Positions 16,373 through 51,889 of a DNA stretch of 64,000 bases are shown piece after piece. The stretch's first letter is position 1. Each line of letters starts with the position of its first letter. Origin of the DNA: Verrucomicrobiales bacterium (lineage in GTDB: Bacteria; Verrucomicrobiota; Verrucomicrobiia; Verrucomicrobiales; DEV007); the NCBI GenBank assembly GCA_029213265.1, contig JARGNG010000003.1:3131-67130 (forward strand), given 5' to 3'. The notes beneath the pieces were generated by a model. The model saw only the letters and a list, made by a program, of their open reading frames with translations. It made no database searches and had not been told where the DNA came from. The position numbers and the translations under genes are program-made.

Positions 16373-16488
16373 ATACAGTTTAGTTGGTTTTCTTTTGGTT
16401 TGGGTTTTCAAATTCCGGGAATCGCTGGGCACGCCGCTGGCAAAGTTTTGAAGCTCAGGAGCGGGCCGACGACCCTCGGAATTCGGAA

Positions 16489-16528
16489 CCCCGGTCTCAC
16501 TACGATTTCTTTCCTAGAAAGACCGGGG
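16489..16528 (-). terminator. Probable terminator or processing hairpin after dnaK
   Basis: CCCCGGTCT (16489-16497) pairs perfectly with AGACCGGGG (16520-16528), with a partly self-complementary interior. On the minus strand it begins 17 bases after the dnaK stop. The run of T is poor (TTCCGAATT follows), so it may stabilise the message rather than terminate, and groES could be reached by read-through. Confidence 0.5.
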
Positions 16529-32379: not shown

Positions 32380-34185
32380 CTAACCACCAACATACTTTCT
32401 CCAACCGCCCAGGCCGGTGATCTCTTCAGCATTCACAATCGCGTGAGACTCGCAGAGAAAACCGCTCACTTCCCGCTGGCCTGTCAGAAGGAGTTTCCCA
32501 ATGCCGAGGGGAGATCCGATGCCTTCGACAAAGGACCCAAAAGTGGACGCGGGAACGCTCCAGATTTCGACTTCGATAGCGCCCCCCTTTTCCTCATCGC
32601 GAACGAGACCGGGCCGGGCTGGAAATTCATCCGTGGCGGGCAGGGAAAACATTCGATACACGGGAGCCGTCTCTGTCGCTTCCACAAAACGGGCTCCGCG
32701 CGTCGTCAGTTGGTGATTCAATGGCAATCCGGAAAGGTGGGCTCCACAGACGACAACATCGATGCACGTTTCGGTCGAACCCAGAGCCATCGCGCCAGGA
32801 TCGAAGGTATTCTCCTTGTCACTGGGCGACAGCAAGCCGGTCGCATCATGAAAGCGGGACGCCAGCCCCAGGAGAAACGGATCCCGAAACGCGGGACCAA
32901 ACAGGGTTACTCCCCATGGCATACCCTGTTGAGTCAGGAACCCGGAAGGCACCGCAACGGCGGCATAGTCCAGCAGATTCATGAAGTTGGTATAGTATCC
33001 CAAATTGGAATTCAGTTGGATCGGATCAGCTTCCACTTCCGCAGTGGAATAGGGCGAACCCAACGTCGGCGTCAGGATGGCATCTACGGTCGACCAGACT
33101 TCGTCGGCCCTGCGCTTCAATGCGCGCAATCGGTATTCGGCCTTGAATGCCGACACTGCGGAAAGACCTTTTGCACCGCCGATAATCTTCGCCGTCACGG
33201 GAAACATGTCTTCCCCATGTTTCTCGAAGAAGGGTTCAATTGCAGCGAGGCGCTCAGCAACCCAGGGCCCCTCGTAGAGAAGGCGGGCGGCTTCGAGGAA
33301 TGGTTCGAAGTCGATCTCCGCTACTTCCCAACCCAATTCCCGACAGCGGGTCAAAGAGTCTCCGAACAGTCCGGCCGCCTCGTCATTGCCAAAGAATTTC
33401 AGCTGATCCGGGCGCGGCACTCCGATTTTTGCGGAAGCCATTGAAGGAGACGGCTCCAGGGGAGTGATCATCGCCCGACTGTAGGGATCCTCCTCATCAA
33501 AGCCTGCCATAAGGTCGACGACCCGGGCGCTTTCCTCCACCGTGCCTGCGAACACCGTGACACAGTCGAGAGAGCGGCAGGCCGGCACAACGCCACGGCA
33601 ACTCACGAGCCCCATGGTCGGCTTGAGTCCGACAAGATTGTTCAAAGACGCCGGAACCCGTCCTGATCCGGCAGTATCCGTTCCGAGAGCGAAGGAAACG
33701 AGACCGGAAGTAACCGCGACGGCAGAGCCCGAACTGGATCCTCCGGGAATAATCTCGGCCTGATAGGGATTCGCGGGATAACCGTAGGGCGATCGAACCC
33801 CGACCAGTCCGGTCGCAAACTGATCGAGATTGGTCTTCCCGATCGGGATCGCTCCCGCCTCGATGAGCCGGGCTACGGCGGGTGCAGAAACCTCCGGAGT
33901 ATAGGCATATTCCGGACACCCGGCTGTCGTGGGGACACCGGCCAGATCAATGTTGTCCTTGATCGCAAACGGGATTCCGAAAAGCGGAAGCTCCGAAGGC
34001 TCGCGATTTTCCAACTGATCCACATACCGGAGAACCGCCTCACTCGACAAGCGCTCGATCCAGATTTTCGGATCCGATTCATCGCAGGCCTGCAGGATAT
34101 CGAGAATGACATCGCGGGGACTTGTCGTTCCGTCGCAATACGATCGCTGCAGGTCGGAGATTCGGAGGAGCTTCAGAGGAGTCAT
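32380..34185 (-). CDS. atzF: Allophanate hydrolase
   Basis: A 601-residue enzyme cleaving allophanate to ammonia and CO2. The amidase-signature domain has catalytic Lys in IPFAIKDNI and the Ser-Ser in PGGSSSGSAVAV; SGRVPASLNNLVGLKPT follows. The extra C-terminal domain typical of allophanate hydrolase begins around residue 470 (TCIDVVVCGAHLSGLPLNHQL) and ends GFLCESHAIVNAEEITGLGGW. The start at 34185 is eight bases after the carboxylase stop, so the genes are coupled. It is the last step of the pathway encoded by this operon. Confidence 0.94.
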   Translation of the reverse strand: MTPLKLLRISDLQRSYCDGTTSPRDVILDILQACDESDPKIWIERLSSEAVLRYVDQLENREPSELPLFGIPFAIKDNIDLAGVPTTAGCPEYAYTPEVSAPAVARLIEAGAIPIGKTNLDQFATGLVGVRSPYGYPANPYQAEIIPGGSSSGSAVAVTSGLVSFALGTDTAGSGRVPASLNNLVGLKPTMGLVSCRGVVPACRSLDCVTVFAGTVEESARVVDLMAGFDEEDPYSRAMITPLEPSPSMASAKIGVPRPDQLKFFGNDEAAGLFGDSLTRCRELGWEVAEIDFEPFLEAARLLYEGPWVAERLAAIEPFFEKHGEDMFPVTAKIIGGAKGLSAVSAFKAEYRLRALKRRADEVWSTVDAILTPTLGSPYSTAEVEADPIQLNSNLGYYTNFMNLLDYAAVAVPSGFLTQQGMPWGVTLFGPAFRDPFLLGLASRFHDATGLLSPSDKENTFDPGAMALGSTETCIDVVVCGAHLSGLPLNHQLTTRGARFVEATETAPVYRMFSLPATDEFPARPGLVRDEEKGGAIEVEIWSVPASTFGSFVEGIGSPLGIGKLLLTGQREVSGFLCESHAIVNAEEITGLGGWRKYVGG

Positions 34186-34193
34186 CAGAGAAA

Positions 34194-37100
34194 TCAGGAA
34201 GGTTCGAGATACAAAAGTGGTTCCCCCGGGGCGACTGCCGCGCCTTCTTTCGCGATGACCTTCCAAACCGTTCCATTCCGCGGGGCGGAAACAATAAATT
34301 CGGTTTTCATTGCCTCGAGGATGGCAACCCGTTCCCCGGCCTCGACGGTATCCCCGTCCTTTTTGAACACCTTCCAGACATTTGCCGCGACAAAGCTGTC
34401 GATGGGCTCCATTCCCTCAGGCACCGCCTCGCTGCCTGATTCGCCGGACCCGGTTTCGAGTTCGTCGACAACCTCAGCGACTCCCGCGGCTGCCCAGCGT
34501 TCGCGCTCCTCTTCGAAAGCAGCCTGCTGGCCTGACTTGAAGTTCTGAATCGCCGCGCAATTCTCCTCGAGAAACCGGTTGTATTCCCCGATCGAAAACT
34601 GCGTTGTCTCGATACGCGGATTGAAACGTCCCTGAATAAAGTCGTTCCGGAGTTCCTCCAGTTCTTTTGTGGTGACCGGATACCAGCGAATCTGATCAAA
34701 AAAGCGCAGCAACCAGGGCTTGCCTTCGCGAAAGGATTCCGTAGTTCGATAGCGGTTCCATTGCTGAATCGTCCGGCCCACGAATTGATATCCTCCCGGA
34801 CCCTCCATCCCGTAAATGCAGAGATAGGCACCGCCGATTCCCACCGCGTTCTCCGGCGTCCAGGTGCGGGCGGGATTGTATTTCGTGGTGACGAGTCGAT
34901 GCCGTGGATCCAGTGGCGTTGCGACCGGTGCGCCCAGATAGACATCACCCAAACCGAGAACGAGATAGTTTGCTTCGTACACAATTCGGTTCACTTCCTC
35001 GATAGAACCGAGCCCGTTGATTCGCCGAATGAATTCAATATTGCTCGGGCACCAGGGCGCGTCCGGTCGGACCGATTGCGTATATTTGTCGATTGCCTCC
35101 TGCGTCGAAGGGTCGTCCCAGGAAAGCGGAAGATGGACGATGCGTGAGGGTACCTCGAGTTCCTCCAGCGGAGGAAGGGCTTGTTCGATCGACTCGATCC
35201 GCTCGATCAAATCGCCCTGTGCAATGATCCGGCTGTCGTAGTGAATCTGAAGCGACCGAATGCCCGGTGTCAGATCAATGATTCCTGATATTTCCCCTGA
35301 CTGAATCGCCTGATGGAGCACGTGCGCTTTGAGGCGAAGATTGAGGTCGAGGCGCAAAGGTCCAAATTCGATCAGGAGATATCGGTCGCCGGACTGCCGG
35401 TAGACAATCTTCTCATCCCCTTCTCCGCGCTCCCGCAAGGTGGCCGATGCAGGAACGGGTTGAGGTTCCAATACCGCCTCCGCACGATCAGCCGGGGCAT
35501 TCCAATCTGCGATTCGCACTTCCTGATCCTCATCGAGTTGCCGGGCATCGGCGAGACTGACCATTTCAAACCGGACTTTGTCACCCGCCCGAAGCTGTCC
35601 CATTTTCCAGAGATCGGCATGAACAATGGTGGCAGGGCAGACGAATCCACCCAGGCTCGGACCATCCGGCCCGAGAATCACCGGCATATCGCCTGTGAAA
35701 TCCACCGTTCCGATTCCGTAGGCATTGTCGTGAATATTGGAAGGGTGAAGCCCAGCCTCCCCCCCGTCCGATCGCGCCCATTCCGGCTTCGGGCCAATCA
35801 GACGGATTCCGGTCCTGTCAGAGTTGTAGTGAATCTCCCAGTCGGTCGAAAAGAAGGTCTCGATGTCATTTGGAGTGAAAAAGTCGGGCGCTCCATGAGG
35901 ACCATACATCACCCGGACTTTCCACGAATTGGTATAGGCGGGAGGATTTTGCAGGGCTGCCGCCGCCTCGCTTGCGCACTGGTCTGATTCTCCGAAATGA
36001 ACCACGTCACCCGTTCGCAAAGCACGACCTGCATGGCCGCCAAACTGTCCGAGGATAAAAGTGGATCGACTGCCGAGGTATTCCGGAACGTCAAACCCTC
36101 CCGCGATAGCGAGATAGGATCGCATCCCACTGGTGACGGCCGGCCCTACCGCCAGAGTTTGTCCCCGCTTGACCGGGATCGATTCCCAAAAGGCGACAGG
36201 CTCTCCATCCAGCGTTGTCTCCATGGGGGCACCGGTCAGCGCGATGACCGTATCGTGATTGAATTGCAGAGTCGGCCCGGTTAAAGTCATTTCCAATCCC
36301 GCCGCCGCATCGGAATTTCCCACCAGTCGATTCGCGAGTCGAAACGCCAGAGGATCCATCGGCCCGGAAGGTGGCACACCAACATCCCAGTAACCGAGCC
36401 GCGAAGGATAGTCCTGGATCGTCGTCTGGGTTCCCCCGGTAAGCACATCGACACTGTGTGGCTGATAGTCGAACTGATCGAGCCAACGAGTTGTAAGGTC
36501 AGCACTCTGAAAGTTGGAGGCGCCCAACACCTGACGCAGATATTCCAGATTGCTCTCGATCCCCGCCACCTCACTTTTCGCCAACGAGTGAAGAAGGCGG
36601 CTAACCGCCTCCTCACGCGTTGCGCCTCTCGACATGACTTTCGCGAGAAGCGGATCGTAAAAGCCGGTCACCTCGGTTCCCGTTTCCACCCACCCGTCAA
36701 TGCGGTCCGCGGCCGCCCAATCAACATGAGTCAGCAATCCCGGAGACGGCTGAAAGTCTTTGTTAGGATCTTCCGCATAGACCCTGACCTCGATGGCATG
36801 TCCATCGGGAACGAGAGATTCCGCAGCAGGCAAGTCCCATGCCTCCCCGGCGCATCGAATCATCCATTCCACGAGATCGACCCCGAAAATCATTTCCGTG
36901 ACACCGTGCTCAACCTGGAGGCGTGTGTTCACTTCGAGAAAATAGAACTCGGCGGTGTCGACGTCGTAGAGAAATTCCACGGTCCCGGCAGATCGATAGT
37001 TCACACTCGCCGCCAGATCGACGGCAGACTGATGAAGCGCTTTTCGAACCTCCCCTGAAATGGCCGGAGCAGGCGTTTCTTCCACGATCTTCTGATTTCT

Positions 37101-37796
37101 ACGTTGCGAAGAACAGTCACGCTCTCCTAACGCAACCACCTTTCCACAACCATCCCCAAAGATCTGCACTTCGATGTGGCGGGCCCGCTCAATGTATTTT
37201 TCTATAAAGACGCCAGACTCACCGAAGTTGGCGGTACTGAGGCGCTTCACTGAATCAAAGGCCCCGGCCAGGTCAGCGGGCCCCGGGCAAATCTGAATCC
37301 CGATCCCCCCTCCCCCGGCCGAACTCTTTAGCATGATGGGATAGCGAATTTCGTCCGCCTTTCCCGCGGCCTCCTCAAGAGAGTCGAGAAGGCCCGTTCC
37401 TGGCAGCAAGGGAACCCGGCTTTCTACCGCGAGATTCCGTGCCTCATGCTTCAAGCCGAAGACTCGCAACTGTTCCGGCGTCGGGCCGATGAAGACCACT
37501 CCTACCGATTCACAAAGCTCTGCGAAAGATGCGCTTTCACTGAGCAAGCCATACCCCGGATGAACGGCTTCCGCGCCGGTGTCCTTGAGAATTTCGAGAA
37601 GGCGATCCTGATTCAGGTAACTGTCTTTGACAGGTGCCGGGCCGAGGCAATACGCCTCATCAGCCATCGTCACATGGGGGGAATCACGATCCGCCTCTGA
37701 ATAGACCGCGACGGAGGCAACGCCCATTTCGCGTAGAGTCCGCAGGATCCGACAGGCGATCTCACCGCGGTTGGCCATAAGCACTTTGGTAAACAT
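34194..37796 (-). CDS. Urea/guanidine carboxylase (biotin-dependent)
   Basis: A 1,200-residue biotin enzyme. Biotin carboxylase occupies residues 1-450 ([46 protein letters not shown]). Two carboxyltransferase halves follow (from [23 protein letters not shown] and from [20 protein letters not shown]), then a C-terminal biotinyl domain with EAMKTEF (biotinyl Lys about 1165). Annotated in most genomes as urea carboxylase. In clusters that also carry the two DUF1989 proteins, characterised homologues carboxylate guanidine rather than urea, so guanidine is the more likely substrate here; this is transferred knowledge. There are no urease genes in the window. Confidence 0.93.
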
Positions 37797-37801
37797 AATG
37801 G

Positions 37802-38437
37802 TCAGTTCCAAATGAGAACCTGCACGGGCGTCGGATTGTAGCCGTTGCAGGGATTGTTCAACTGCGGGCAATTGCTGATCAGAGCCACAACATCGCGCCC
37901 TGCCTTCATTTCGACATAGCGTCCCGGAGCGGAGATTCCATCCTCAAAGGTGAGCTTGCCGTCGGGCGTGACCGGCACGTTCATGAAGAAGTTGATATTG
38001 CAGGTGATGTCGCGCTTTCCCATTCCGTGGCCCCATTCTGTCACCCCGTTGATGAAACTGTCCCGACAGGCATGCATCGCCTCTTTGTCGAGGGAGTAGC
38101 GCATCGTATTGCTTTCCCGTGAGCAGGCGCCCCCCACCGTGTCGTGACGTCCGCAGGTATCCGCCACGATCGTGAGTAGCGGCCTTCCATCGGTGGACAT
38201 CAGTTTTGTTCCCGTCGTCAGATAGAGATTCTTCTGGGCGCGAATCGTGTCCGAAGCGCTGTAGCGATTGGCCGGATCGTGCGCATCGTAAAACAGGGTG
38301 TCGGCGGCCTGGTTTCCCTCCAGATCAACGATCCGGAATGTTTGTCCTGCAAGGATCGTGTGCATCCAGTGATCGCCGGCGGGAACCGTGTGATCATAGG
38401 TCGCGTTCGCCGGGTCATTTTTGCTTTCCGTCAGCAT
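37802..38437 (-). CDS. DUF1989 protein UAAP2 (carboxyguanidine deiminase subunit)
   Basis: A 211-residue protein of the urea-carboxylase-associated DUF1989 family, type 2. The N-terminus reads [36 protein letters not shown], then [16 protein letters not shown] with His/Cys residues that bind zinc in related proteins, and [11 protein letters not shown]. Homologues act as a two-subunit deiminase on carboxyguanidine, giving allophanate for the downstream hydrolase. It lies five bases before the carboxylase start and 37 bases after UAAP1. ATG 38437 was chosen; the longer frame runs into the neighbour. Confidence 0.9.
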
Positions 38438-38474
38438 AGGGAATTGGAGGAATAATTGGATCCGAAAGGATGAG

Positions 38475-39203
38475 TTAGTCGCGAAGCCGGTAGTAGTCTT
38501 CGGTGTTAATAAAGGCTCGCTCGTTCTCGGGACGGGAAAGACGGCAGGGATCATTGCTCGTTGCGGGTTCTCCGGAAAAGACCTCCAGTTTCACCGGCTT
38601 CGGAGAATATTCCGTTCCGGGGTCAAAGGGATGAGGACAGGTATTCAGAACCACGAGAGTTTTCATCTCCAGGCGGAGTTCCACAGAGTCACCGGCACCG
38701 CTCCCCTCGCTGACGAAATCGAGGTTCCCCTCCTCGTCCGACACCACTTTGCTGAACCAGTTCAGGTTGGGAACGAGGTCTTTCGGGCCAAGCCCCCACT
38801 TTGCCAGTTCGATGAGAAAGTTCTCTTTTCCGTTCCGATAGAAGTCATTCCGGCAGGCCTGGTAGCTCCCCGCGCCTCCGTATTTTTCCAGAATCTGATC
38901 TGAGTCCGTACAACCACATACCGTGTCGTGCCATCCCCTTGTATCCTCCGTTACGGAGCAGAAGATCCGGCCCATGTCGGAGTGGATACAAAGCGGCGCA
39001 GTGAGATAGAAAACGTGCTGCCCTTTCAGCGTGTCGGGCATGTTGTAGCGCTCTGTTAGTTGATCGGCATTGTAGAGAAGCATCGACACATTGGCCCCGC
39101 CTTCCAGATCGGTGAGCCGCAGCCTTTTTCCCCGCCCAATTACCTGTGACCACATCCCGCCACCGGGAATCACTTTTTCGAAAATCGAAGAACTCAGGTT
39201 CAT
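38475..39203 (-). CDS. DUF1989 protein UAAP1 (carboxyguanidine deiminase subunit)
   Basis: A 242-residue partner of UAAP2, with the same fold: [56 protein letters not shown] (possible zinc ligands), [12 protein letters not shown] and [10 protein letters not shown]. The pair is thought to form the deiminase for the carboxylated substrate. It is the second gene of the operon, 19 bases after the NikR-like regulator. Confidence 0.9.
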
Positions 39204-39222
39204 AAAATAGAGAAAGCCGGGG

Positions 39223-39675
39223 CTATTTCTTTTCCTCCTTACGGGGATGAATAGGAGGCATGATCGTAGACATCATGACGAGGCGTCCTGATTTAACGCC
39301 TTTGCAGGTGATGAGCTTGTCAGAGATCATCTTGAGGCGCCGGGCAGGGCCCTGGACGAGGAGAACCTCCATCGTATGATCCTCCTCCAGGAGAATGTGC
39401 TGAGAGCTGATCACTTCATCGATGTATTCCCGCTCGATGTTCGCCAGTTGCTGCAACAGCCCGGGCCGCCCGTCATAAAAAAGAGTGATGGTTCCCGCCA
39501 TCAACTCGGCACCGCGCTGCTTGTAGTGCTCGATCAGGCTCGAATTGATCATCTCGGAAATCGCCTGGGATCGATTCTCGAAACCACGGGCATTTACGAC
39601 ATTCGACAACTCACGATAGACATCCCACGGGAGTGATATGCTGATTCGCTTGACGCCGGTTTCCTGTTCGCTCAT
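39223..39675 (-). CDS. NikR-fold transcriptional regulator with degenerate nickel site
   Basis: A 150-residue regulator. Residues 8-47 are a ribbon-helix-helix ([20 protein letters not shown]); residues about 60-135 form the NikR-type ACT-like domain (GTITLFYDG to [10 protein letters not shown]). Aligned by hand to E. coli NikR, the ligands His76, His87, His89 and Cys95 correspond to Arg82, His93, Leu95 and Thr101, so only one of four is kept. It is therefore unlikely to be a nickel sensor of the usual kind. It heads the guanidine/urea operon, and a NikR-like dyad lies just upstream, so autoregulation and control of the pathway are inferred. Its effector may be guanidine or a pathway intermediate. 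Confidence 0.85.
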
Positions 39676-39700
39676 CGATTGAATGATGAAACGAAGAGAT

Positions 39701-39716
39701 AGCAGCAGCCGTGCCG
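39701..39716 (-). promoter_or_regulatory. Candidate sigma-54 promoter of the NikR-like/guanidine operon
   Basis: Minus-strand reading CGGCACG-GCTG-CTGCT: GGCACG and TGCT match the -24/-12 consensus at exact spacing, with one mismatch in each box. The start point would be near 39690, about 15 bases before the regulator ATG. The regulator dyad begins two bases upstream of the -24 box. Confidence 0.5.
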
Positions 39717-39717
39717 T

Positions 39718-39749
39718 CCGTAATACTTTTGTTGAAATTCGTATTACGG
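39718..39749. promoter_or_regulatory. NikR-like dyad operator
   Basis: CCGTAATAC (39718-39726) and GTATTACGG (39741-39749) are perfect inverted 9-base arms separated by 14 bases. As GTAATA-N16-TATTAC this has the same geometry as the E. coli NikR operator (GTATGA-N16-TCATAC). It sits 43 bases before the NikR-like gene and beside its sigma-54-like promoter. Confidence 0.7.
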
Positions 39750-39786
39750 CTATGGAAGGAAAGTCATACCCGCAGGGAAGTAACGT

Positions 39787-41052
39787 TCAGCTTGAGTGTG
39801 CCTTGATCTTCTCTGCGAGATACTTTTGAAAGTGCCAAATCGGTTCCTCAAGGTGGCTGAGTCGACCGGGGGTGGCGACGGAGGATTTCATTCCCCGCTG
39901 CGTCGCTTCGCAAACCTCCATATCTTCCAGATGAAATTTGATCGCCGCTGCGACTTCACTTTCGTAGGTCTCGTCGTATCCTTTCTCTTCCTTCGTCGAG
40001 GGATGAATCAACATAGTGGTGGTCAGGCTGCAGGTTTCCGGTCCGGTCGGCAGCAACCGATACCAGTAGGTTCGGTCCGGAGCATTGAAGATGAGAAAGT
40101 TAGGGAATCCAAGGTAGACCCACCATTCGGTGTAATCTTCGACCTCAAGACCGGGAAAAGGCTTCATGGTCGTTCCGGCATCCCCGGAGGCGAGAATCTC
40201 TTCCTTCATATCCTCTCGCAAGGGCAGGTGCATTACCGAGTAGTTTTCATCGTACGGCTCTGTCCAGCAGCCCTTGGCCGGCAAAAATGGCTCGAGGGTT
40301 TTTCGGTGCGCACCGAGGTGATGATACGCCTCCATGAAATTCTCGAGTAGAATCTTCCAGTTGAAGTCGCAGCTCCAATGCTGATCCCAGACGAGCTCCG
40401 CTTCGCTCAGATTCCATTTTCCCATGAACTGCTCCCGCAAGCCGTCGTACTTTTCAGCGAGAGGCGGAATTTCTTCCGACAAGGTCACAAAGATGAAACC
40501 TTCCCAGATCTCACTGCGATATTCGTGCAGGCAGATTTCCGTTCGATCGAAGCCCTCGGCCTCCTGCATTTCGGGGACACCCACAAGGCGCCCGCTCATT
40601 TCATAGCTCCACAGATGATAGGGGCAGAGAATGACACGCTCGTTGCCTTTATCAGGATAGTTGGCTCCATTCGGCATCACGTCCATCCCCCGATGTCGAC
40701 ACACCCTCGACAACACTCGAATCACGTCATCTTTTCCCCGGGCCACCACCATGGGCTCGCCGCAAATGTCCACCTTGATAAAGTCTCCGGGATTCGGCAA
40801 TTGCGAGATGTGGGCAAGCGAGATCCACTCTTTTCTGAAAATCTCCGACGCTTCAAAATCGAGAAACGCGGGATCCACGTAAGCCCCGGGAGGAAGCGAC
40901 TGTGACTTCTCTCTGGGTAGTTGAGATGATTCGACAATTGTTGCAAAAATCGCCTCCGTCGAAGGCATGCCCTCCGGTATGGGGAAACGATACTTGGGGG
41001 GATCACTCGCCGTAGGCGAATTCAAATCGGGAAGGGTTTCTGTTGTATTCAT
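39787..41052 (-). CDS. Rieske non-haem iron oxygenase, alpha subunit
   Basis: A 421-residue ring-hydroxylating-type oxygenase. The Rieske [2Fe-2S] ligands are Cys118-x-His120 (CRHRGMD) and Cys143-x2-His146 (CPYHLWSY). The mononuclear iron site is NFMEAYHHLGAH (His244, His249). Members hydroxylate aromatic compounds or N-demethylate small quaternary or methylated amines; the neighbourhood favours a nitrogen compound, which is inference. No reductase or ferredoxin gene is beside it. Its start overlaps the stop of the TIM-barrel gene by four bases (ATGA), and it is last of a five-gene operon starting with an ABC permease. Confidence 0.9.
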   Translation of the reverse strand: MNTTETLPDLNSPTASDPPKYRFPIPEGMPSTEAIFATIVESSQLPREKSQSLPPGAYVDPAFLDFEASEIFRKEWISLAHISQLPNPGDFIKVDICGEPMVVARGKDDVIRVLSRVCRHRGMDVMPNGANYPDKGNERVILCPYHLWSYEMSGRLVGVPEMQEAEGFDRTEICLHEYRSEIWEGFIFVTLSEEIPPLAEKYDGLREQFMGKWNLSEAELVWDQHWSCDFNWKILLENFMEAYHHLGAHRKTLEPFLPAKGCWTEPYDENYSVMHLPLREDMKEEILASGDAGTTMKPFPGLEVEDYTEWWVYLGFPNFLIFNAPDRTYWYRLLPTGPETCSLTTTMLIHPSTKEEKGYDETYESEVAAAIKFHLEDMEVCEATQRGMKSSVATPGRLSHLEEPIWHFQKYLAEKIKAHSS

Positions 41053-41915
41053 GATAGGGTGCAGGGTTCGTAGCGTTGGGAGAATCGATCCCGCTGGCGG
41101 TGACCCATCCATTGATTGATCTCCCAGAGATCTCCCAGAGGTTCCCCCGTAAACGGGAGGGTGTGCAAATAGCCATCCGGACCGAATTCCGGAGTCATCG
41201 TGGAAACAGCGAATCCGCGTTCGATCTGGGATTTCCAAACCGCATCCCACCAGCGTTCATGAGCCAGCAAAGCATCGCCTGACTCGGGAGCCCTCGGATC
41301 GGTAACCTGGGGGCCCTGGCTGTAGCCGACCCGCGGCTGAACATGAAAGGCGTGTTCGGCGCAGAGTGCCAGTATCTCCGGCTCTTCATCCAGAACGAGG
41401 CGCTCCGCCACCACGCAAAAATGGCTGAAGTCGCATGTGATCTTGAGCTCCGGCAGTTCGAATAAAACATCACGGACCCTCCACGGGCTATTGAACGATC
41501 GACCGCGGTGGGTTTCCACGGAAATCGAGATTTCATATTCGGCTTCCAGGTCGGGTATTGCGGAATGAAACTCCATAATCTCCCGAAACGACCATCCGTC
41601 GTAGCCGGCCATGGTATTGATGAAGCGGGGCTGAGCGGGAAGCGAAATTTCGATACCAGCTCTCAGCGAATCCAGATGTTCGAGTGGACTTCGATGAGGC
41701 AGCGGAACATAAAAACCCACCTCGGTAACCGTACTGATTTCGGCAATCAATCCGAGTTCGTATTCTGCAAGCGTCCCGACAAACTCCTCCCGCTCTTCTG
41801 CCAAAGCGGGAACGGGAGCTTCGATTCCACTGAACCCGGCCTCCACGCAGAGTTGGGCGGCTTCGGGGAGCGGCCCCTCGTGCCCCCACAGCGTTTTAAA
41901 AAGCTCCAGTCTCAT
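41049..41915 (-). CDS. Sugar-phosphate isomerase/epimerase-like TIM barrel
   Basis: A 288-residue protein of the xylose-isomerase-like superfamily: MRLELFKTLWGHEGPLPEAAQLCVEAGFSGIEAPVP at the N-terminus, AEISTVTEVG, ISVETHRGRSFNSPWR (metal Glu), LKITCDFSHFCVV (metal Asp/His) and HAFHVQPRVGY. The metal-binding outline is kept. Substrate unknown. The gene overlaps both neighbours by four bases (ATGA on each side), so it is made together with the FGE-like protein and the Rieske oxygenase and probably acts on the same compound. Confidence 0.85.
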   Translation of the reverse strand: MRLELFKTLWGHEGPLPEAAQLCVEAGFSGIEAPVPALAEEREEFVGTLAEYELGLIAEISTVTEVGFYVPLPHRSPLEHLDSLRAGIEISLPAQPRFINTMAGYDGWSFREIMEFHSAIPDLEAEYEISISVETHRGRSFNSPWRVRDVLFELPELKITCDFSHFCVVAERLVLDEEPEILALCAEHAFHVQPRVGYSQGPQVTDPRAPESGDALLAHERWWDAVWKSQIERGFAVSTMTPEFGPDGYLHTLPFTGEPLGDLWEINQWMGHRQRDRFSQRYEPCTLS

Positions 41916-42631
41916 AGGAGGCCGCTTTCCTCAATCAAACGGAAACCTAGATTGTCGTATCGCGCATCCACCGGCGCCCAGTCCCGCCAGGAGCAACGCA
42001 GCAGCCTCGGCATGTGGTCCCACGCACCTCCCCGAATGACTCTTCGATCGGGATCAGCTTCCTTCGAATCGAGACGGGAGGTCCATGGGCTAGAAGTCCA
42101 CTCACAGACATTCCCTGCCATATCAAAGAGACCAAAAGAATTGGCGGGGTAGCTCTTCACCGCAGTGCGTTCCGCCGGTCCTACACTGTTCCGCTGCTCG
42201 TCATAGAGGTAGTTCGCATCCTGCGCCGAAATTTGATTTCCCCGGGGAAAAATGGCACTCTCCCCGCCCCGGCAGGCATACTCCCACTCCCTCTCGGTTG
42301 GAAGCCGGAATCGTTTTCCCGGATAGTGTTCTGACAGCCAGCGAGTGTATTCGGCAATCTCTCCAAAAGTTACTCTGACCATCGGCTTCATCGAAGCATA
42401 TCCGGGACGGAACCGACCCGGTTCAAAATACGACCAGTCCCGCTCTGTCACCGGAACAGATGAAATGGAAAACCCTTCCGTGAACGAAGCCGTCTGCCTC
42501 GGCAATTCTACGCCACTGACAAATTTATCGGTCTCCAATCCCCCCATCTCGAACTGCCCGGCAGGAACTCGAACAAATGCCCCAACCAACCGGGCGGGCT
42601 CATCAATGGGTTCTGAGGGATTCATCAACAT
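41912..42631 (-). CDS. Formylglycine-generating-enzyme-like (SUMF1) protein
   Basis: A ~239-residue cytoplasmic protein with the SUMF1/FGE-sulfatase fold: FVRVPAGQFEMGG, FRLPTEREWEYACRGG, ANSFGLFDMAGNVCEWTSSPW, RVIRGGAWDH and DNLGFRLI. Members make formylglycine in sulfatases or act as iron enzymes of the EgtB type. There is no sulfatase nearby, and no signal peptide, so the conventional role is doubtful. MLMNPS gives two near-identical starts (42631, 42625). It is the third gene of the permease-to-Rieske operon. Confidence 0.87.
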   Translation of the reverse strand: MLMNPSEPIDEPARLVGAFVRVPAGQFEMGGLETDKFVSGVELPRQTASFTEGFSISSVPVTERDWSYFEPGRFRPGYASMKPMVRVTFGEIAEYTRWLSEHYPGKRFRLPTEREWEYACRGGESAIFPRGNQISAQDANYLYDEQRNSVGPAERTAVKSYPANSFGLFDMAGNVCEWTSSPWTSRLDSKEADPDRRVIRGGAWDHMPRLLRCSWRDWAPVDARYDNLGFRLIEESGLL

Positions 42632-42675
42632 GGAGACCGGCAGGATCTGGCGACATTCAGAAATCGAATCGAGGC

Positions 42676-43833
42676 CTACTCTCCGTAGCCTGATTCCTTC
42701 AAGATTTTCATGGGCGAAAGGTCGATCCCCGCCTCCATGGGGTGAGTCCCTTTGACCACTCCAAATTTCACCCACCACTCATTGGTGAGCTTCCAGTGGT
42801 TTCTGATCTCACCACTCTTGCCAAAGGGAGGATCGCCCTCGCTCAGGCCCATGAACTGAGAAGACTCCGTCCAGTTAAAAGGATAAATTCCCCCATCACC
42901 CGAACTTCCATCCGCTCCAATGACAAGCTCCACATCAGCGACGGGAAACTGAAGCCCCTTCGCGATGATTTCATTCCCTTCCGCCGGATTGGCTTCCCAG
43001 AATTTCACGGCTTCGAAATACGCTTTCACGGCAAGCGAAGCGACCTCACCCTTTTCAAGGAAGGAACCGCTCATATACATTCCATCGGCGAGAAGAGCCG
43101 TTTTCTTAAAATACGGATCCTTCGAGGTAGCGGCAACGGTTGCTTCCGGCAGCGCTTTGAGAACATTGCTTCCAAACGGCTCCCAGAATTCTCCGGCAGC
43201 TACCTTGCCGCTGACCATGGCAGCGACAGCATCATCCATGATCAGATTCGTATACTTGACCTTGTCAAAAGCGACACCGTTTTCTTCCAGCCAGATACCC
43301 ATGTAGATCTGGGTCAGTCCGCCCTCCAGAACCGCGACTTCTTTTCCAATAAGCTGCTTCGCGTCGGTCACCCCGGGCGCGAGAATGATCTTATCAGTTC
43401 CATAGGATGGATTGGTGAATGCCACCATCTTCACGGGCACTCCCTCCTCAGCCGCAATGGGTCCGTACTCAACCGTCGAAGACGTCACATCCAGCTTGCC
43501 CGCTGCCATTTGGCCAAAGCTCTCATAGGGATCTTCGATAATCTGGATATCGAGATTGATTTCGGGGACCAGGTTCTTTTCTTTCGCAATGAACCAGAAG
43601 CCATAGCCCGGCCAGGAAAACAGGGACACTTTGACCGTGGGAATCTCCGCGGGAGCTGGTGCCGGTTCTTCCGCTTTGTTGGTTTCCGCAGGAGCCTCCT
43701 TTGCAGGCTCTTCCGGTGCCGGAGTTTCCTTTTCAGGCTCTTGCGGTGGCCCGGAGCAACTGCTCAGGAACAAGGTGAAGACGATGCCTGCGATCAAGCT
43801 GGCGATGCGATAGACTGGATGGTGTATTTTCAT
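42676..43833 (-). CDS. ABC transporter substrate-binding lipoprotein (NitT/TauT type)
   Basis: A 385-residue lipoprotein (lipobox LFLSSC, Cys26) with a 40-residue Pro/Glu/Ala linker, then a family of periplasmic binding proteins related to the nitrate/sulfonate/taurine receptors: VKVSLFSWPGYGFWFIAKEKNL, GKLDVTSSTVEYGPIAAEEGVPVKMV, GKEVAVLEGGLTQIYMGIWLEENG and AAMVSGKVAAGEFWEP. Ligand not predictable from sequence. It follows its permease by 18 bases. CCTAACTG lies six bases before the ATG in place of a Shine-Dalgarno. Confidence 0.87.
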   Translation of the reverse strand: MKIHHPVYRIASLIAGIVFTLFLSSCSGPPQEPEKETPAPEEPAKEAPAETNKAEEPAPAPAEIPTVKVSLFSWPGYGFWFIAKEKNLVPEINLDIQIIEDPYESFGQMAAGKLDVTSSTVEYGPIAAEEGVPVKMVAFTNPSYGTDKIILAPGVTDAKQLIGKEVAVLEGGLTQIYMGIWLEENGVAFDKVKYTNLIMDDAVAAMVSGKVAAGEFWEPFGSNVLKALPEATVAATSKDPYFKKTALLADGMYMSGSFLEKGEVASLAVKAYFEAVKFWEANPAEGNEIIAKGLQFPVADVELVIGADGSSGDGGIYPFNWTESSQFMGLSEGDPPFGKSGEIRNHWKLTNEWWVKFGVVKGTHPMEAGIDLSPMKILKESGYGE

Positions 43834-43851
43834 GGTTCTCAGTTAGGAAAT

Positions 43852-44706
43852 TCAATAGAGGTAGCGAAACCAGAGGCGGTGAAGGAGACGGAAGAGCAGA
43901 TCAAAAAGAAGGCCGAGAATTCCGATCACAAGAATCCCCGCAAGAATGTCCTCGACCCTGACAAAACGCTTTGCCCTCATCATCATGGCGCCAATGCCAT
44001 CTGTGGCCGCAACGATTTCGGCGATCACCAGATAGGTCCAACTCACCGCCAGCATCTGGCGCGCCGTATCCATATAACTCGGAAGCGAAGCGGGCAAAAT
44101 GACGTGCCAGATCACGCTCTTCCGGGTCGCCCCGAGGGTGCGGGAGCATTCGACGATCTCCTGCTTCACTGCCTTGGTATTGTCCATCAGCAAGGTGACC
44201 AAAAACCAGACCACACCAATGACCAGCAGGGCAATCTTTTGACCGTCCCCTGTTCCCAACCACATCAGGAGAAGTGGAACGAAGGAAGGAGCCGGCAAAT
44301 AGCGGAAGGGAGATACCAGCGGATTCAGGAAGCTCTCTACCACGGGAAAGGCACCCATCATGATCCCGAGGGGCAGCGCGATCGAAAGCGCAATCGCGAA
44401 GCTGATCAGAATCCGCTTTACGCTTTGAAGGATATCCGTTCCAAAGCCCCGTTCCGCGATCAAATCATAAAGTGCCGTCACCACCTTCCCCGGTGTCGGG
44501 AGGAGTGCATCCGGAGTGAGCGAAGAGATCGCAAGGAGGTGCCAGCCCAGAAGGAACAGAATCCACGCGGAAGCACCCAGAGCATATTTCAAACGCCGCC
44601 CAACCGGTTTGCGAAATTCGAAGAGCGAGGCCTTCGCTTGAGGCTGCGCTTTTGCCTTCCTCTTCTCTGAGGAAATGCGGGGCAGGCTTTCAGCGATCGT
44701 AGGCAT
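43852..44706 (-). CDS. ABC transporter permease (NitT/TauT type)
   Basis: A 284-residue inner-membrane permease with six hydrophobic helices and the EAA-like loop (VECSRTLGATRKSVIWHVILPASLPSYMDTARQMLAVSWTYLVIAEI). First gene of the operon permease, binding lipoprotein, FGE-like, TIM barrel, Rieske. No ATPase is in this operon, so it may share the ATPase encoded at 48166-49068. A sigma-54-like site lies 39 bases upstream. ATG 44706 was chosen; the longer frame runs into the divergent marR control region. Confidence 0.9.
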   Translation of the reverse strand: MPTIAESLPRISSEKRKAKAQPQAKASLFEFRKPVGRRLKYALGASAWILFLLGWHLLAISSLTPDALLPTPGKVVTALYDLIAERGFGTDILQSVKRILISFAIALSIALPLGIMMGAFPVVESFLNPLVSPFRYLPAPSFVPLLLMWLGTGDGQKIALLVIGVVWFLVTLLMDNTKAVKQEIVECSRTLGATRKSVIWHVILPASLPSYMDTARQMLAVSWTYLVIAEIVAATDGIGAMMMRAKRFVRVEDILAGILVIGILGLLFDLLFRLLHRLWFRYLY

Positions 44707-44744
44707 ATCGGGGATTCCGAAGTGGTTCTTGCCTTCATCACAAC

Positions 44745-44760
44745 CGCATAAGTCGTGCCA
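44745..44760 (-). promoter_or_regulatory. Candidate sigma-54 promoter of the permease-Rieske operon
   Basis: Minus-strand reading TGGCACG-ACTT-ATGCG. The -24 box is perfect and the -12 GC is at the right place, with mismatches beside it. Predicted start about 28 bases before the permease ATG. The MarR-type palindrome begins 12 bases upstream of it. Confidence 0.5.
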
Positions 44761-44771
44761 CAAAGCGCATT

Positions 44772-44789
44772 TATTTGCATCCGCAAATA
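44772..44789. promoter_or_regulatory. Candidate MarR operator
   Basis: TATTTGC-ATCC-GCAAATA is a perfect 7-4-7 inverted repeat in the 189-base space between the divergent permease and marR genes. Size and AT-rich arms fit a MarR-family dimer site. It is placed to control both genes. Confidence 0.55.
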
Positions 44790-44895
44790 CTTTTCCCGCT
44801 AACTCGTTGAGCCTTTTTGAGCCACCGATCAAAACGAAACTGGGTGCAAGCTTGTGGTGGAGTTTTTTGACGCGAGCCCTCATATTCACTCCCCT

Positions 44896-45396
44896 ATGCC
44901 TGACAAGAATTCCCACCGGCAGCACGTCGCCTGGCGCCTGTTTCTAATGAGCCACTCCATCCTCACGAAAAAAGTGGAATCCGCTCTCGAGGAAGCGGGA
45001 TGCATTTCTTTCGACACATATGATGTGCTGGTGACTCTTTCGGAGGCTCAGGACTTCTCTCTGAAAATGGGAGACCTTGCCGATGCGACTTTCTTCAGCA
45101 ACAGCGGCATTTCCCGACGCGTAGCCCGACTGGAACAATCAGGCTTGATCAAACGCACGCGCTGCAAGGACGACGGCCGTGTCTTCTACGCCACCCTGAC
45201 AAGAGCAGGAAAGACCTCCCTTCGGAAAGCGTGGAACGTCTACCGCGAAGTCATCGACCAGGTTTTCGTTCGCTCGATGACAGGGAATGACGCCGAGGCG
45301 ATGATCGAAACGCTTCGCTCCGTCCTGCGCCCCATCGACCTGGGAATTCTAGAGCGATGGATTGACGAAGACCGGACCGATGCTCCGATGTGCTGA
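44896..45396 (+). CDS. MarR-family transcriptional regulator
   Basis: A 166-residue winged-helix regulator: MSHSILTKKVESALEEAGCISFDTYDVLVTL (dimerisation and first helix), DATFFSNSGISRRVARLEQSGLIKR (recognition helix), RCKDDGRVFYATLTRAG (wing). Divergent from the permease-to-Rieske operon, with a perfect palindrome between. MarR proteins usually bind small aromatic or phenolic ligands. ATG 44896 was chosen over an upstream GTG frame. Its stop codon abuts the stop of the glutamine synthetase-like gene with no base between. Confidence 0.88.
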   Translation: MPDKNSHRQHVAWRLFLMSHSILTKKVESALEEAGCISFDTYDVLVTLSEAQDFSLKMGDLADATFFSNSGISRRVARLEQSGLIKRTRCKDDGRVFYATLTRAGKTSLRKAWNVYREVIDQVFVRSMTGNDAEAMIETLRSVLRPIDLGILERWIDEDRTDAPMC

Positions 45397-46758
45397 TTAA
45401 AACAGCCTCGCGTACTGATCCACTTCCCACTGCGAAACGGTCTGGTGATATTGTCGCCATTCCTCCGATTTGTATGTGATGAACTCATCTCTCAGTTCCT
45501 GCCCGAGAGTCTCCGCCACAAAGGGATCCGCGGCAAACAACGCCACCGCCTCTTCGAGCGAGCGCGGCAGTTCCTGAATCCCCGCCGCCTCCAGTTGGGC
45601 CGGGGTGTATTCATAGAGGTTATCTTCCCGGGCATCGCCCGGATCGATTTGCTCTTTGATGCCCTTCAGTCCCGCTGCGATGACGAGAGTTGCGGCCAGA
45701 TACGGGTTGCAGGCGGCATCCGCATTTCGAGACTCAACACGACCGCCCCCCATGGGAACGCGGAGAGCATTGGTGCGATTATTTTTCCCGTAGCTGTTGA
45801 ATACCGGCGCCCAGCTGTAGTAGGCCATCAAGCCACGTCGAACGAGCCGCTTGTAGCTGTTCACGGTAGGAGCGAAGGCCGCACAAAGAGCCGGACCGTG
45901 TTTCAAAACGCCTCCGATGAAGTGATAGCCGAGTTCCGTGAGCCCGAGCCCCCGCGGGTCATCGGCAGGATCACATTTAAAGAGATTGGAACCCGTTTCG
46001 GGATCAAAGAGCGACATATTGAAGTGAGCTCCGGAGCCGGTTTTGTCCGCGAATGGTTTCGGCATGAAAGTGGCAATGAGCCCTTCCTCGGAAGCATACT
46101 GCTTCGCCATCATTCGGAAAAAGATGAATCGATCACACATCGTCAGGGCATCCGCATACTGGAAATCGAACTCGAACTGGGAGTTGGCATCTTCGTGATC
46201 GAGAGAGTAAAGATCCCAACCCAGCTCATTGATCGTTCCCGCCACCTTGTCGATCCATTCGTAGCGGTCCATGAAGCGTTTCACGTCGTAGCAGGCCTTT
46301 ACCAAATTATCGTCGTCGTTGGGGATTTCGAGTTTCCCCTCTTCATTCAACTTCAACACGTAGACTTCACATTCGATCCCGAGATTGACCCCGAAACCCA
46401 TCTCTTCAGCTTCGGCAAGAACCTTCTTAAGGGCAACGCGGGTGTTCACTTCATACGGCTCCCCTTTGAAGGTGTTGTCCGCAGGGTAAAAGGCCACCTC
46501 CTTGTTCCAGGGGAGAATGCATCCTCGATCCAGATCCGGCACGGATGCGATCTCGTCATCGTTCGGGCTCTGGCCCAATCCATCGAGGGCATACCCGGTA
46601 TAGAGTTCCGAGCCCTCCGCAAAGTGAACAAAGTGATCGATGGGAACGAACTTTCCTTTGGGAACACCGTGAATATCGACATAGGCGCCGACGCAGTATT
46701 TGACCCCCTCCGCTTTAAGGTTTTCGCGGATTTGGATGAGTTCTTCTTCGGATTTCAT
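45397..46758 (-). CDS. glnT: Type III glutamine synthetase-like enzyme (GlnT / GMAS type)
   Basis: A 453-residue ATP-dependent ligase of the glutamine synthetase superfamily: [85 protein letters not shown] (ATP/metal region), and [29 protein letters not shown] with Asn/Arg contacts. The type III group includes gamma-glutamylmethylamide synthetase, which joins glutamate to methylamine, so either ammonia or a small amine may be the substrate. No Tyr-adenylylation loop was identified. Last gene of an ABC-transport operon; it converges on marR with zero spacing. Confidence 0.9.
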
Positions 46759-46780
46759 AAAGATGTTTCAAGGTAGGGAG

Positions 46781-47362
46781 CTACAGGGATTCCGACCCGG
46801 TGGAATCACCCGGCTTCGACCATTCCAGTGATTGGATTTGAGAATCGAGCGGGGTATGGGCAATCCCGTTGGTAAAATTCGATATCAGCTTGGTGGCGAG
46901 GCCGAGAATGACTTCGAGTGACTGCCCGGGCTCAAACCCGGCTGCAAGAAACTTGTCCATTGCTTCGTCTCCGGGATGCCCCCGAAATTCAATCAGGCTG
47001 CGGGTAAAGACCCGGAGTGCCTCGAGACGCTCGTCACGGAGCGGTCGCCCGGAGCGCAACGCTTCCACATTTTCCTCCGACATACCGGCGTTCCGGGAAA
47101 GAAGAGTGTGCCACGGCACGCAGTAGGTGCAGTTGTTTTCAAAATTGGCCGTTTGATAGACCACTTGCTTCTCCACATCACTGAGACTGCATTGGTTGAA
47201 CAAATCCCACAGGGTGGCATACGCCGTGAGAGCTTCCGGTGAAGAGGCAAGGACGCGCTCAAGATTCGGAATCATCCCAAAATCCGCCTCTACCTCCTCC
47301 ATTACCTTGCAGGAAGTCCCGGGAGCAGATTCAAAATCGTGAATGGGAAATTCCGCTCTCAT
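46781..47362 (-). CDS. AhpD/carboxymuconolactone-decarboxylase-like protein
   Basis: A 193-residue helical protein with the AhpD-type active site CTYCVPWH (Cys78, Cys81, His85) after the helix VEKQVVYQTANFENN. Members are thiol peroxidases, decarboxylases or redox partners. Its start overlaps the creatininase-family stop by four bases (ATGA), so it is tied to that pathway. It may remove a peroxide or carry out a redox step on the imported compound. Confidence 0.85.
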   Translation of the reverse strand: MRAEFPIHDFESAPGTSCKVMEEVEADFGMIPNLERVLASSPEALTAYATLWDLFNQCSLSDVEKQVVYQTANFENNCTYCVPWHTLLSRNAGMSEENVEALRSGRPLRDERLEALRVFTRSLIEFRGHPGDEAMDKFLAAGFEPGQSLEVILGLATKLISNFTNGIAHTPLDSQIQSLEWSKPGDSTGSESL

Positions 47363-48153
47363 AGGTCAGAAACTTTTCCTTTTCTGACAAGCCTTTCCCA
47401 GTGCGACCGGTTCAACGGCGCCTCCTCCTTTCGTGCCTCTTTCAGAATCGCAACGAGGGCATCCCCCATCTCCCGGAAAAGTTGCGATCCCCTCTCTGCG
47501 CTGCCGAGCGATGGAGCACCGGTGACCCCGTTTACGCTTGTCTGGGCAACAGGATAACTGAACACCGTGCCGCCGGTTCGATCCGGATCATCCATCACTG
47601 CTTTCATTCGGACCGACTCGGGAGCGAGGTGCAACATCAGATCTGTTTCCGCCTTGTTGGCGTGCAAATCATCCGCGTCGGAAATGAAATAGTTCCAGAT
47701 GGATTCGCTCAGTTGAAAGGTGTGCTTCAATCCAATCTGAAGATTCCCGAGATGGGCGAGTCGAATTTTTTCGACCGCCACCCGAAGAGAGGCATCATTT
47801 CCAAAATGGCTGTTTACGATCAGCAGCTTGCTCCAGCCGGTTTGAACCGCCCACGAGGAAATACTGCAAACCGTTTCAATGAACGCTTCGTGCGTGAGGG
47901 AAAATGTCCCCGGCCATTTCGGCGTGTGTCCCGAGGAAACCGTGAAAGCCAGAGTGGGAAGCAAGGCAACGCCTGTTTCGGTCGAAGCATATTCACAAAC
48001 CCTGGTCGCGATCACCGTGTCTGTATTGATCGGCAAATGGGGACCGTGTTGCTCTGTGGCGCCAACAGGCAGGATCAACATTCCGCTCCCCCTGTCCCGA
48101 ACCCTGGCCACCTCCGGCCAGGAAAGAAATTCAATCGAAATAGGAACCTTCAT
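47359..48153 (-). CDS. Creatininase-family amidohydrolase
   Basis: A 264-residue zinc amidohydrolase-like protein: LPVGATEQHGPHLPINTDTVIA (metal Glu, His, Asp), GHTPKWPGTFSL, LLIVNSHFGNDASLRVA (the usual NGHGGN is altered to NSHFGN), and DLHANKAETDLML in place of HAGExETS. Altered second-shell residues suggest a substrate other than creatinine. Family members open cyclic or linear amides such as creatinine and formamidopyrimidines. Sits between the ABC ATPase (12 bases) and AhpD-like gene (4-base overlap). Confidence 0.85.
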   Translation of the reverse strand: MKVPISIEFLSWPEVARVRDRGSGMLILPVGATEQHGPHLPINTDTVIATRVCEYASTETGVALLPTLAFTVSSGHTPKWPGTFSLTHEAFIETVCSISSWAVQTGWSKLLIVNSHFGNDASLRVAVEKIRLAHLGNLQIGLKHTFQLSESIWNYFISDADDLHANKAETDLMLHLAPESVRMKAVMDDPDRTGGTVFSYPVAQTSVNGVTGAPSLGSAERGSQLFREMGDALVAILKEARKEEAPLNRSHWERLVRKGKVSDL

Positions 48154-48165
48154 TGCCGATTCGGT

Positions 48166-49068
48166 TCACTCCACATCATCGCCTTCGACCGTCATTCGGG
48201 CGAAAGGCAGCGTATCTTCTTTGCCTTCACTTTCCGGATGAATGAGCTGATTAATTCGATGCTTGGTGGCAATGAATTCCGGCTCGATCGACTGATCGAG
48301 GCGACGGGGCCGTGGAACCGGCACTTCGATAATCTCGTCCACCTCCCCCGGGTTTGCCTTCAAAACAAGAATCCGATCCGCGAGAAAAACGGCCTCATCA
48401 AGGTCATGCGTGATGAATAGAATCGTGATGTCAAGATTCCGCCAGATCTGCAAGAGGTAACTCTGCATCTGGGCGCGGGTCTGGGCATCAAGTGCTCCGA
48501 AGGGCTCGTCCATCAGCAAAATTCGCGGCCGATTCGCCAAGGCTCTTGCAATAGCAACTCTCTGCTTCATTCCGCCGGAAAGTTGATGAGGATAACTGTT
48601 CTCGAATTGAGAGAGTCCCACCAGATCAATCCACTGGCGCGCTTCCCCTTCCACCGAGGAACCCGACTTCCCCTCCATTTTCGGCCCGAACATGACGTTT
48701 TGCTTCACCGTCAGCCAGGGAAAGAGGGTATAGGATTGAAATACCATTCCCCGATCCGGCCCCGGGCCTGCGACAGGGTTCCCGTCTAACAAAACCTGTC
48801 CGCCCGATTCAGTTTCGAGGCCGGCAAGAATTCGAATGAGCGTCGATTTTCCACATCCGGACGGACCGATCACACACATGAACTCCCGGCGGAACACTTC
48901 GAAATCGACTCCCTTGAGGGCCGTGACTTCACCGCCCGGCGTTGGGAAGGTTTTCCCCAGTCCCTCCACCGAAAGCACTACCGGGCGCTCTTTCAGCCGG
49001 CTAAAGCGTTCTTGGACTTCGGGAGATTGCTCGCGGTAGTCAATCGCGTCTGGAAGGGAAGGTTTCAT
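48166..49068 (-). CDS. ABC transporter ATP-binding protein (NitT/TauT type)
   Basis: A 300-residue ATPase with Walker [10 protein letters not shown] (68-76), signature LSGGMKQR, Walker [13 protein letters not shown] and switch His in [10 protein letters not shown] ~25-residue N-terminal extension precedes the domain. Its start overlaps the permease stop by four bases. It probably powers the transporter of this operon, and perhaps also the second permease, which has no ATPase of its own. Confidence 0.94.
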
Positions 49069-50492: not shown

Positions 50493-50572
50493 ACAAATAA
50501 GGTGGATGGGAAACCTGTCTCCGGATTCGATGACTCCGGAGACAGGGAAAGAGGTTTCAGTAACTGGCTGCC

Positions 50573-51672: not shown

Positions 51673-51889
51673 ACACCTGCCAACAATGGCTTTGCCTGCT
51701 CCGGAAAAGCCTCCGCAAGACCTTCTCTTGGGCTTGATCCCTGATTCTAAATCACTTGAGAGAAATCACACGATCTCCTCACGCACGTAATACCCACCTC
51801 TCAATTCCTGTTGCTAGTCATTCCAATCTACCCGTAGAAAGGAGAACGATTTTTGACCCGCAAGGAAGAAAATCGGGTTCCTCTGAAAT

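Follow-up and report, generated by a model that had tools for sequence, protein, structure and literature searches.

The closest described counterparts of the protein studied here belong to the NikR family of nickel regulators. E. coli NikR holds nickel through His76, His87, His89 and Cys95 and binds its operator in the nickel-bound form; that operator, GTATGA-N16-TCATAC, is reported with a span of 28 bp (PMC7055735). In guanidine metabolism, the guanidine-I (ykkC) riboswitch is reported to serve guanidine transport and carboxylase genes (PMC12186494). Paired proteins of PF09347 (DUF1989) are described as carboxyguanidine deiminase subunits, and aspartates at K. lactis positions 1330 and 1584 as the residues that tell guanidine carboxylases from urea carboxylases (PMC11410670). 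A search of titles and the beginnings of abstracts returned no literature linking NikR to guanidine or urea carboxylase, and subscription journals may differ in this respect.

A NikR-type gene in a guanidine-breakdown cluster

The window, a stretch of 64,000 nucleotides from a Verrucomicrobiales bacterium (contig JARGNG010000003.1), contains a NikR-family gene among the following features.

32380..34266, minus strand: allophanate hydrolase (TIGR02713, 765 bits)
34194..37871, minus strand: guanidine carboxylase (family name: urea carboxylase) with D724 and D976 (TIGR02712, 1850 bits)
37802..38554, minus strand: UAAP2, DUF1989, carboxyguanidine deiminase subunit (TIGR03424, 337 bits, residues 51-249); the real start is probably inside this ORF
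38475..39203, minus strand: UAAP1, DUF1989, carboxyguanidine deiminase subunit (TIGR03425, 330 bits)
39223..39675, minus strand: NikR-family regulator without the nickel site (R82/H93/L95/T101 at E. coli positions 76/87/89/95)
39718..39749, no strand: operator-like dyad CCGTAATAC-N14-GTATTACGG (28-bp core 39720-39747)
39787..41250, minus strand: Rieske oxygenase alpha subunit; the true start is probably internal
41049..41915, minus strand: xylose-isomerase-like TIM barrel protein
41912..42778, minus strand: formylglycine-generating-enzyme-like (FGE-like) protein
42676..43833, minus strand: ABC substrate-binding protein (NMT1-like)
43852..44925, minus strand: ABC permease
44854..45396, plus strand: MarR-family gene inside the cluster
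45397..46758, minus strand: type III glutamine-synthetase-like (GS) enzyme
46781..47362, minus strand: carboxymuconolactone-decarboxylase-like protein
47359..48153, minus strand: creatininase-family amidohydrolase
48166..49068, minus strand: ABC transporter ATPase
49065..50492, minus strand: ABC permease
50573..51583, minus strand: ABC substrate-binding protein (NMT1-like)

A sequence-only reading of this DNA had placed the NikR-type gene at the head of a guanidine or urea operon. The enzymes of the pathway are indeed there: the paired DUF1989 proteins and the allophanate hydrolase score above the cut-offs of TIGR03425, TIGR03424 and TIGR02713, and D724 and D976 of the carboxylase align with the columns of residues 1330 and 1584 of 5i8i, the chain numbering being taken as K. 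lactis numbering and the column of residue 1584 counted by hand. Because both signature aspartates of guanidine carboxylases are present, "guanidine" is the better label than "urea". A motif search at the discriminating position of the carboxylase in 48 regulator-bearing loci gave Asp in 43, Asn in none and no motif in five. As for the place of the regulator, it does precede the pathway genes, but other same-strand genes stand before it. By family annotation, the neighbours from 32380 to 51583 are genes of guanidine type, with no nickel transport or nickel enzyme genes in this region. The locus resembles the described guanidine carboxylase pathway in having all of its enzymes with their signature residues, and differs in that it would be controlled by a protein rather than by a known riboswitch.

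The creatininase, type III GS, Rieske, FGE-like and TIM-barrel genes (41049-48153, minus strand) recur in several related loci, and a Rieske oxygenase gene is also present in L002, L003, L047, L048, L056, L063 and L067. The MarR-family gene was set aside as a general regulator, with matches in L002 and L003 alone among the loci searched.

A predicted NikR fold that has lost three of the four nickel ligands

The regulator gene encodes a protein of 150 residues in which a ribbon-helix-helix domain is followed by NikR_C (PF08753, 76.6 bits against a Pfam cut-off of 22), the architecture of NikR, and residues 10-137 align with 2bj1. Its best matches by sequence and by structure are NikR chains of the 2bj series, which, 2bj1 included, we take to be NikR of P. 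horikoshii. In phmmer alignments to 2bj1 and to 1q5v, our reference chain for E. coli NikR, the nickel-ligand columns are occupied by R82, H93, L95 and T101, so that H93, the equivalent of His87, is the one ligand kept, just as the sequence-only reading had stated. The protein also falls below the cut-offs of all five matching NCBIfam NikR models, with scores of 102.2 against 105, 64 against 83 and 57.4 against 175.45 for the NikR equivalogs. Judged from sequence, a protein with a predicted NikR fold and a NikR-type operator is nonetheless no nickel regulator by the ligand test.

Structure prediction, which the same reading had suggested, revealed no pocket. The AlphaFold model is poor (pLDDT 64.7); its C-terminal domain matches NikR domains with a TM of up to 0.92 by target length, its best full-length matches are NikR chains at a TM of about 0.5, and at this low confidence no guanidine pocket emerged from it.

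The nearest relatives, L002 and L003, have regulators 92% and 84% identical to that of the window. Since dN is 0.05-0.11 and dS ranges from 0.95 to saturated among these three sequences (dN 0.11 and dS 1.39 for the window against L003), the protein is under purifying selection. Neutral decay of a broken nikR gene was considered and is ruled out by dN far below dS, by conservation in many genomes and by the covariation of residue and half-site described below.

The full nickel site is missing throughout a pathway-linked clade

A scan of a genome collection yielded 10 loci, two from Verrucomicrobiales and eight from Proteobacteria, all 10 in the same kind of cluster. Searching 387 genomes from the window's phylum with the profile made from these 10 proteins gave matches in 137. 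Our census takes in all phylum matches except six that cover the DNA-binding part alone, and counts a homologue as pathway-linked when at least two of UAAP1, UAAP2, carboxylase and allophanate hydrolase occur in the stretch examined. It comprises 151 NikR homologues, of which 48 are pathway-linked (the 10 scan loci plus 38 from the phylum survey, counting the window) and the remaining 103 are not.

The His-His-His-Cys set is found in none of the 48 pathway-linked proteins versus 92 of the 103 others. No pathway-linked protein has Cys at column 95 (L121, with an incomplete frame, has no residue there), and their ligand columns read RHLT, RHLV, RHLI, RQMN, CHHM, HNNT, HLHS or HHHY. Besides the 92 HHHC proteins, the others consist of nine DRAS-like sequences of a distinct clade, one HHYC and one HHHY (L091). 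Three histidines are kept in some members (HHHY, HHHT), and these may retain residual metal binding. Two genomes, G480 and G130, each encode a full-site NikR plus a form lacking the nickel site.

Seven further loci come from a survey of a proteobacterial class (in L217 the first ligand column is absent, and the examined stretch of L215 contains no pathway enzyme), and three were examined on plasmids, out of 87 records with matches. Consistent with the proposed loss of ligands, homologues in the same context carry a full nickel site in 0/48 census loci, 0/7 proteobacterial loci and 0/3 plasmid loci. The plasmids belong to Acinetobacter sp. NCu2D-2, Novosphingobium sp. EMRT-2 and the pond-water isolate Asticcacaulis excentricus CB 48. 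On each of them the regulator gene stands in this pathway cluster too; the ligand columns read QHQV, AHFS and LHFS, and public annotation calls these proteins transcriptional regulator or CopG family.

Linkage to the pathway is close, in counts that are not corrected for kinship: all 28 of the best phylum homologues besides that of the window lie beside UAAP genes (27 of them also with the carboxylase in the stretch examined), and UAAP1 is over the cut-off in 45 of the 387 phylum genomes, 38 of which have the regulator in the locus while seven have none.

The clade also has conserved residues of its own. Gln replaces the Arg or Lys of NikR at E. coli position 102 (98%), two prolines follow the domain (98% and 90%), and Met at position 52 and Glu at 81 and 91 are further clade-specific residues; these are places to look for a new pocket. 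In an unrooted tree of 91 rows, made with every third HHHC sequence and with the four ligand columns left out, the 48 pathway-linked proteins and L091 form one group of 49 rows (SH-aLRT 100), starred in our tree, that adjoins HHHC NikRs of the same phylum. For a tree of few columns and many unresolved forks, the simplest reading would be a single origin, with the cysteine lost at the base of the clade and the histidines lost piecemeal.

L091, an HHHY member of the clade, lacks the N-terminal part and comes from a genome with no UAAP1 match; it is probably a leftover after loss of the pathway. The second NikR-like clade, with DRAS-type ligand columns (L178 and L183-L190), consists of nine sequences from one family of the phylum, and the contexts of L184, L187 and L188 lack pathway genes and contain proteins bearing prepilin-like N-methylation motifs.

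An operator-like dyad with NikR geometry

The dyad noticed in the sequence-only reading stood up to closer inspection. Its arms can be read directly, CCGTAATAC at 39718-39726 and, after N14, GTATTACGG at 39741-39749; counted from 7-bp arms it spans 28 bp (7+14+7), as in E. coli, and it lies 42 bases upstream of the ATG (44 from the 7-bp arm). This candidate 28-bp palindromic operator is conserved in relatives, and in L002 and L003 the arms and the N14 are identical although the flanking DNA differs. The next best sites in the 5.87-Mb draft genome carry 2 mismatches. A regulon beyond the locus was rejected, since the exact dyad occurs once and sites with at most three mismatches number 49 per strand versus at least 100 when the pattern is reversed.

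No second dyad scored above threshold upstream of the substrate-binding gene that starts at 51583, where a lone half-site is present at 51787-51793, and no sigma-70-type promoter was found near the dyad. A third half-site, GTCATAC on the plus strand at 39763-39769, precedes the dyad by 22 bases when read in the direction of the gene; L002, L003 and L051 have similar half-sites at the same offset.

The scan for dyads covered the DNA ahead of the regulator, the substrate-binding gene and UAAP1 in 55 regulator-bearing loci, the 48 pathway-linked ones of the census and the seven from the proteobacterial class survey (mean length 989 bp, and 534 bp in loci without the regulator). A span-28 dyad with two NikR-like half-sites was present in 48/55; the half-site list and the scanned region were fixed after the sites had been seen, and the controls are the 20 other spans between 20 and 40, each with a dyad in 0-6 of the 55 loci, and 11 guanidine loci without the regulator, where the span-28 dyad was found in none. 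Earlier counts had been 12/38 and 3/10 before the regulator, then 20/48, then 34/55 in a scan that overlooked sites before the substrate-binding gene. Seven regulator-bearing loci have no dyad: L008 and L217 are cut by a contig end, L216 and L011 have no substrate-binding gene to scan, L121 has the incomplete frame, and L074 and L102 simply stand as exceptions. Upstream of canonical nikR genes in the phylum, the same half-sites gave a span-28 dyad in 7/92, a weak peak against 6 for span 27, and inheritance of the operator unchanged from canonical nikR is weakly supported.

On the plasmids, a span-28 dyad lies at most 140 bp before the regulator in all three loci. The Acinetobacter locus (L225) has dyads at 8830-8857 before the regulator and at 16466-16493 before an oppositely oriented transporter operon, which also carries an SMR transporter and a 2OG-Fe(II) oxygenase. 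A dyad likewise precedes the transporter operon of L226 (6205), and span-28 matches without an evident link were seen in L225 (6722) and L226 (17469 and 17551).

Residue 5 of the regulator covaries with the half-site

Position 5 of E. coli NikR, in the DNA-reading strand, presumably reads bases of the operator together with Arg3 and Thr7. Arg3 is kept, and position 5 is Ser or Thr in the clade. Across 48 loci, Ser5 goes with TATTA/TAATA half-sites in 36 and Thr5 with TATGA/TCATA in eight, four loci are ties (2 each) and the opposite pairing does not occur, the half-site list behind these counts having been chosen after the sites were seen. E. coli NikR combines Thr5 with a GTATGA half-site, as the Thr5 members of the clade do with TATGA. 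On a tree made without that column (39 untied rows), residue 5 and half-site changed four times each, and the changes coincide. An independent-pairs sign test found 3 pairs on starred branches and gave p=0.25, a sample with which 0.05 is out of reach. We regard this covariation as the best evidence short of experiment that the regulator would bind the dyad.

In one proteobacterial class, regulator and guanidine-I rarely occur together

The guanidine-I riboswitch is an RNA, whereas the regulator is a protein. No known guanidine riboswitch is visible at the window locus, in agreement with the sequence-only reading: between 30000 and 52000 no Rfam family attains its gathering score, and strict-filter searches of the genome gave no match to guanidine-I, -II or -III. 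Among the phylum's 45 pathway genomes, guanidine-I was found in none under stricter filters, among the candidates scored, and guanidine-II in five and guanidine-III in two, on other contigs or more than 1 Mb from UAAP1. With cmscan, seven regulator-bearing phylum loci gave no guanidine aptamer, and L191-L197, seven guanidine loci of the phylum without the regulator, gave no Rfam match; six of the latter come from genomes with three TIGR03425-type matches. The three plasmid loci have no Rfam match either. Seven of the 45 phylum pathway genomes thus lack the regulator and also an Rfam riboswitch at the locus, which counts against the explanation favoured below. In L052 (5600-5889) and L065 (4954-5252) the 5' ureB small RNA family matches at urease alpha genes, probably owing to coding-sequence similarity.

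In the class of G389 (the genome of L004), which we take to be GTDB Gammaproteobacteria, UAAP1 is over the cut-off in 29 of 369 genomes, and the regulator was searched for in these 29. Guanidine-I occurs in 21 of them, and nine have the regulator at 98 bits or more: two genomes have both, seven the regulator only, 19 the riboswitch only and one neither. Guanidine-I is therefore present in 19/20 genomes without the regulator versus 2/9 with it (Fisher p=1.7e-4, kinship not corrected). This near-exclusion supports the idea that the regulator senses guanidine or a pathway intermediate.

The two genomes with both are G389 and G609. The regulator of G389 ends a transporter operon divergent from the enzyme operon; that of G609 lies on a different contig among transporter and GS genes, where the 18 kb examined contain no pathway enzyme, and the enzyme locus of this genome carries guanidine-I. 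More broadly, five loci of the CHHM form from one proteobacterial group (L004, L005, L006, L010 and L011) have guanidine-I before the enzyme operon and the regulator at the end of the divergent transporter operon, with a dyad at the operon start in four, and this co-occurrence is counted against our explanation. Guanidine-II lies upstream of the carboxylase in six regulator-bearing loci: L004 (33.2), L007 (33.1), L009 (33.0), L212 (34.1), L213 (32.6) and L217 (39.2), the first five within about 2.1 bits of the gathering score of 32. These elements mark the six loci as guanidine-responsive independently of the regulator; the presence of both together is counted against our explanation too, with most of the elements barely over the gathering score.

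Discussion

Homology to NikR, loss of the ligands, linkage to the pathway, the dyad and the near-exclusion of guanidine-I are all legible in the genomes compared. They probably reflect a NikR-descended, pathway-specific transcription factor that controls guanidine uptake and breakdown. We take it to be a local repressor of guanidine use that does not depend on nickel and is released most likely by guanidine. From the conserved spacing and the covariation of residue and half-site, it almost certainly binds the NikR-type 28-bp dyad through its N-terminal ribbon-helix-helix domain. A response to nickel through the NikR site has very likely gone, since no member of the clade has the cysteine and the histidines have gone to varying extents. 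The former metal-binding domain would serve another signal, and guanidine is a somewhat favoured candidate for it, a pathway intermediate being the other. The resemblance to NikR of E. coli, P. horikoshii and H. pylori extends to the two domains, the 28-bp operator span and Arg3, which we take to be a base-reading residue; the differences are the missing ligand set, scores below the NCBIfam cut-offs and the guanidine-breakdown context.

The free regulator would repress the guanidine operon via the dyad, and its ligand, most likely guanidine, would release it, reversing the ligand logic of NikR; an activator role is the alternative. A repressor released by its ligand is the simplest logic because a catabolic operon should be on when its substrate is present, and the location of the dyad, 42 bases ahead of the regulator's own ATG, would favour repression.

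The same local regulator might instead respond to carboxyguanidine, allophanate, ammonium or another substrate of the cluster, creatinine- or methylguanidine-like, a reading we consider unlikely. The creatininase, type III GS, Rieske and FGE-like genes of the window reach beyond the carboxylase route, and the Acinetobacter plasmid cluster has a 2OG oxygenase and an SMR transporter in addition, but such extra genes vary among loci whereas the regulator and the carboxylase set stay together, and most regulator-bearing pathway genomes of the one class surveyed lack guanidine-I.

It is more doubtful still that the protein has remained a metal sensor, with nickel or another metal acting via a changed site to decide between the nickel-free carboxylase route and urease or other nickel enzymes. 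Urease alpha does occur in 27 of the 38 regulator-bearing phylum genomes, and the three-histidine members would fit such a role; the window genome, however, has no urease alpha match, the window protein has a single ligand, every ligand column varies among lineages, unlike a conserved new site, and both G480 and G130 hold a full-site NikR as well. Least probable of all is an autoregulator without a ligand, a NikR turned constitutively DNA-binding that sets the expression level alone: loss of the trigger site with retention of the dyad speaks for it, yet the clade-specific C-terminal residues and the purifying selection suggest a function kept there, and a repressor that is always active would not replace a riboswitch.

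The regulator is a strong candidate for the first known guanidine-sensing protein, and its clade offers a concrete guanidine-sensor candidate with a mapped operator. Whether a nickel sensor turned, on a single occasion, into a guanidine-sensing protein that passed between Verrucomicrobiota and Proteobacteria and became a counterpart of guanidine-I with reversed logic is, in our estimate, evenly balanced. If true, this would be the first transcription factor that binds guanidine, with a ligand logic reversed relative to NikR, and a clear example of how a domain for sensing metal can be redirected to a small organic cation, with forms keeping three, two, one or none of the histidines living on in different lineages. 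A guanidine-responsive repressor could also serve as a biosensor. Protein and RNA would then swap places in the control of one pathway.
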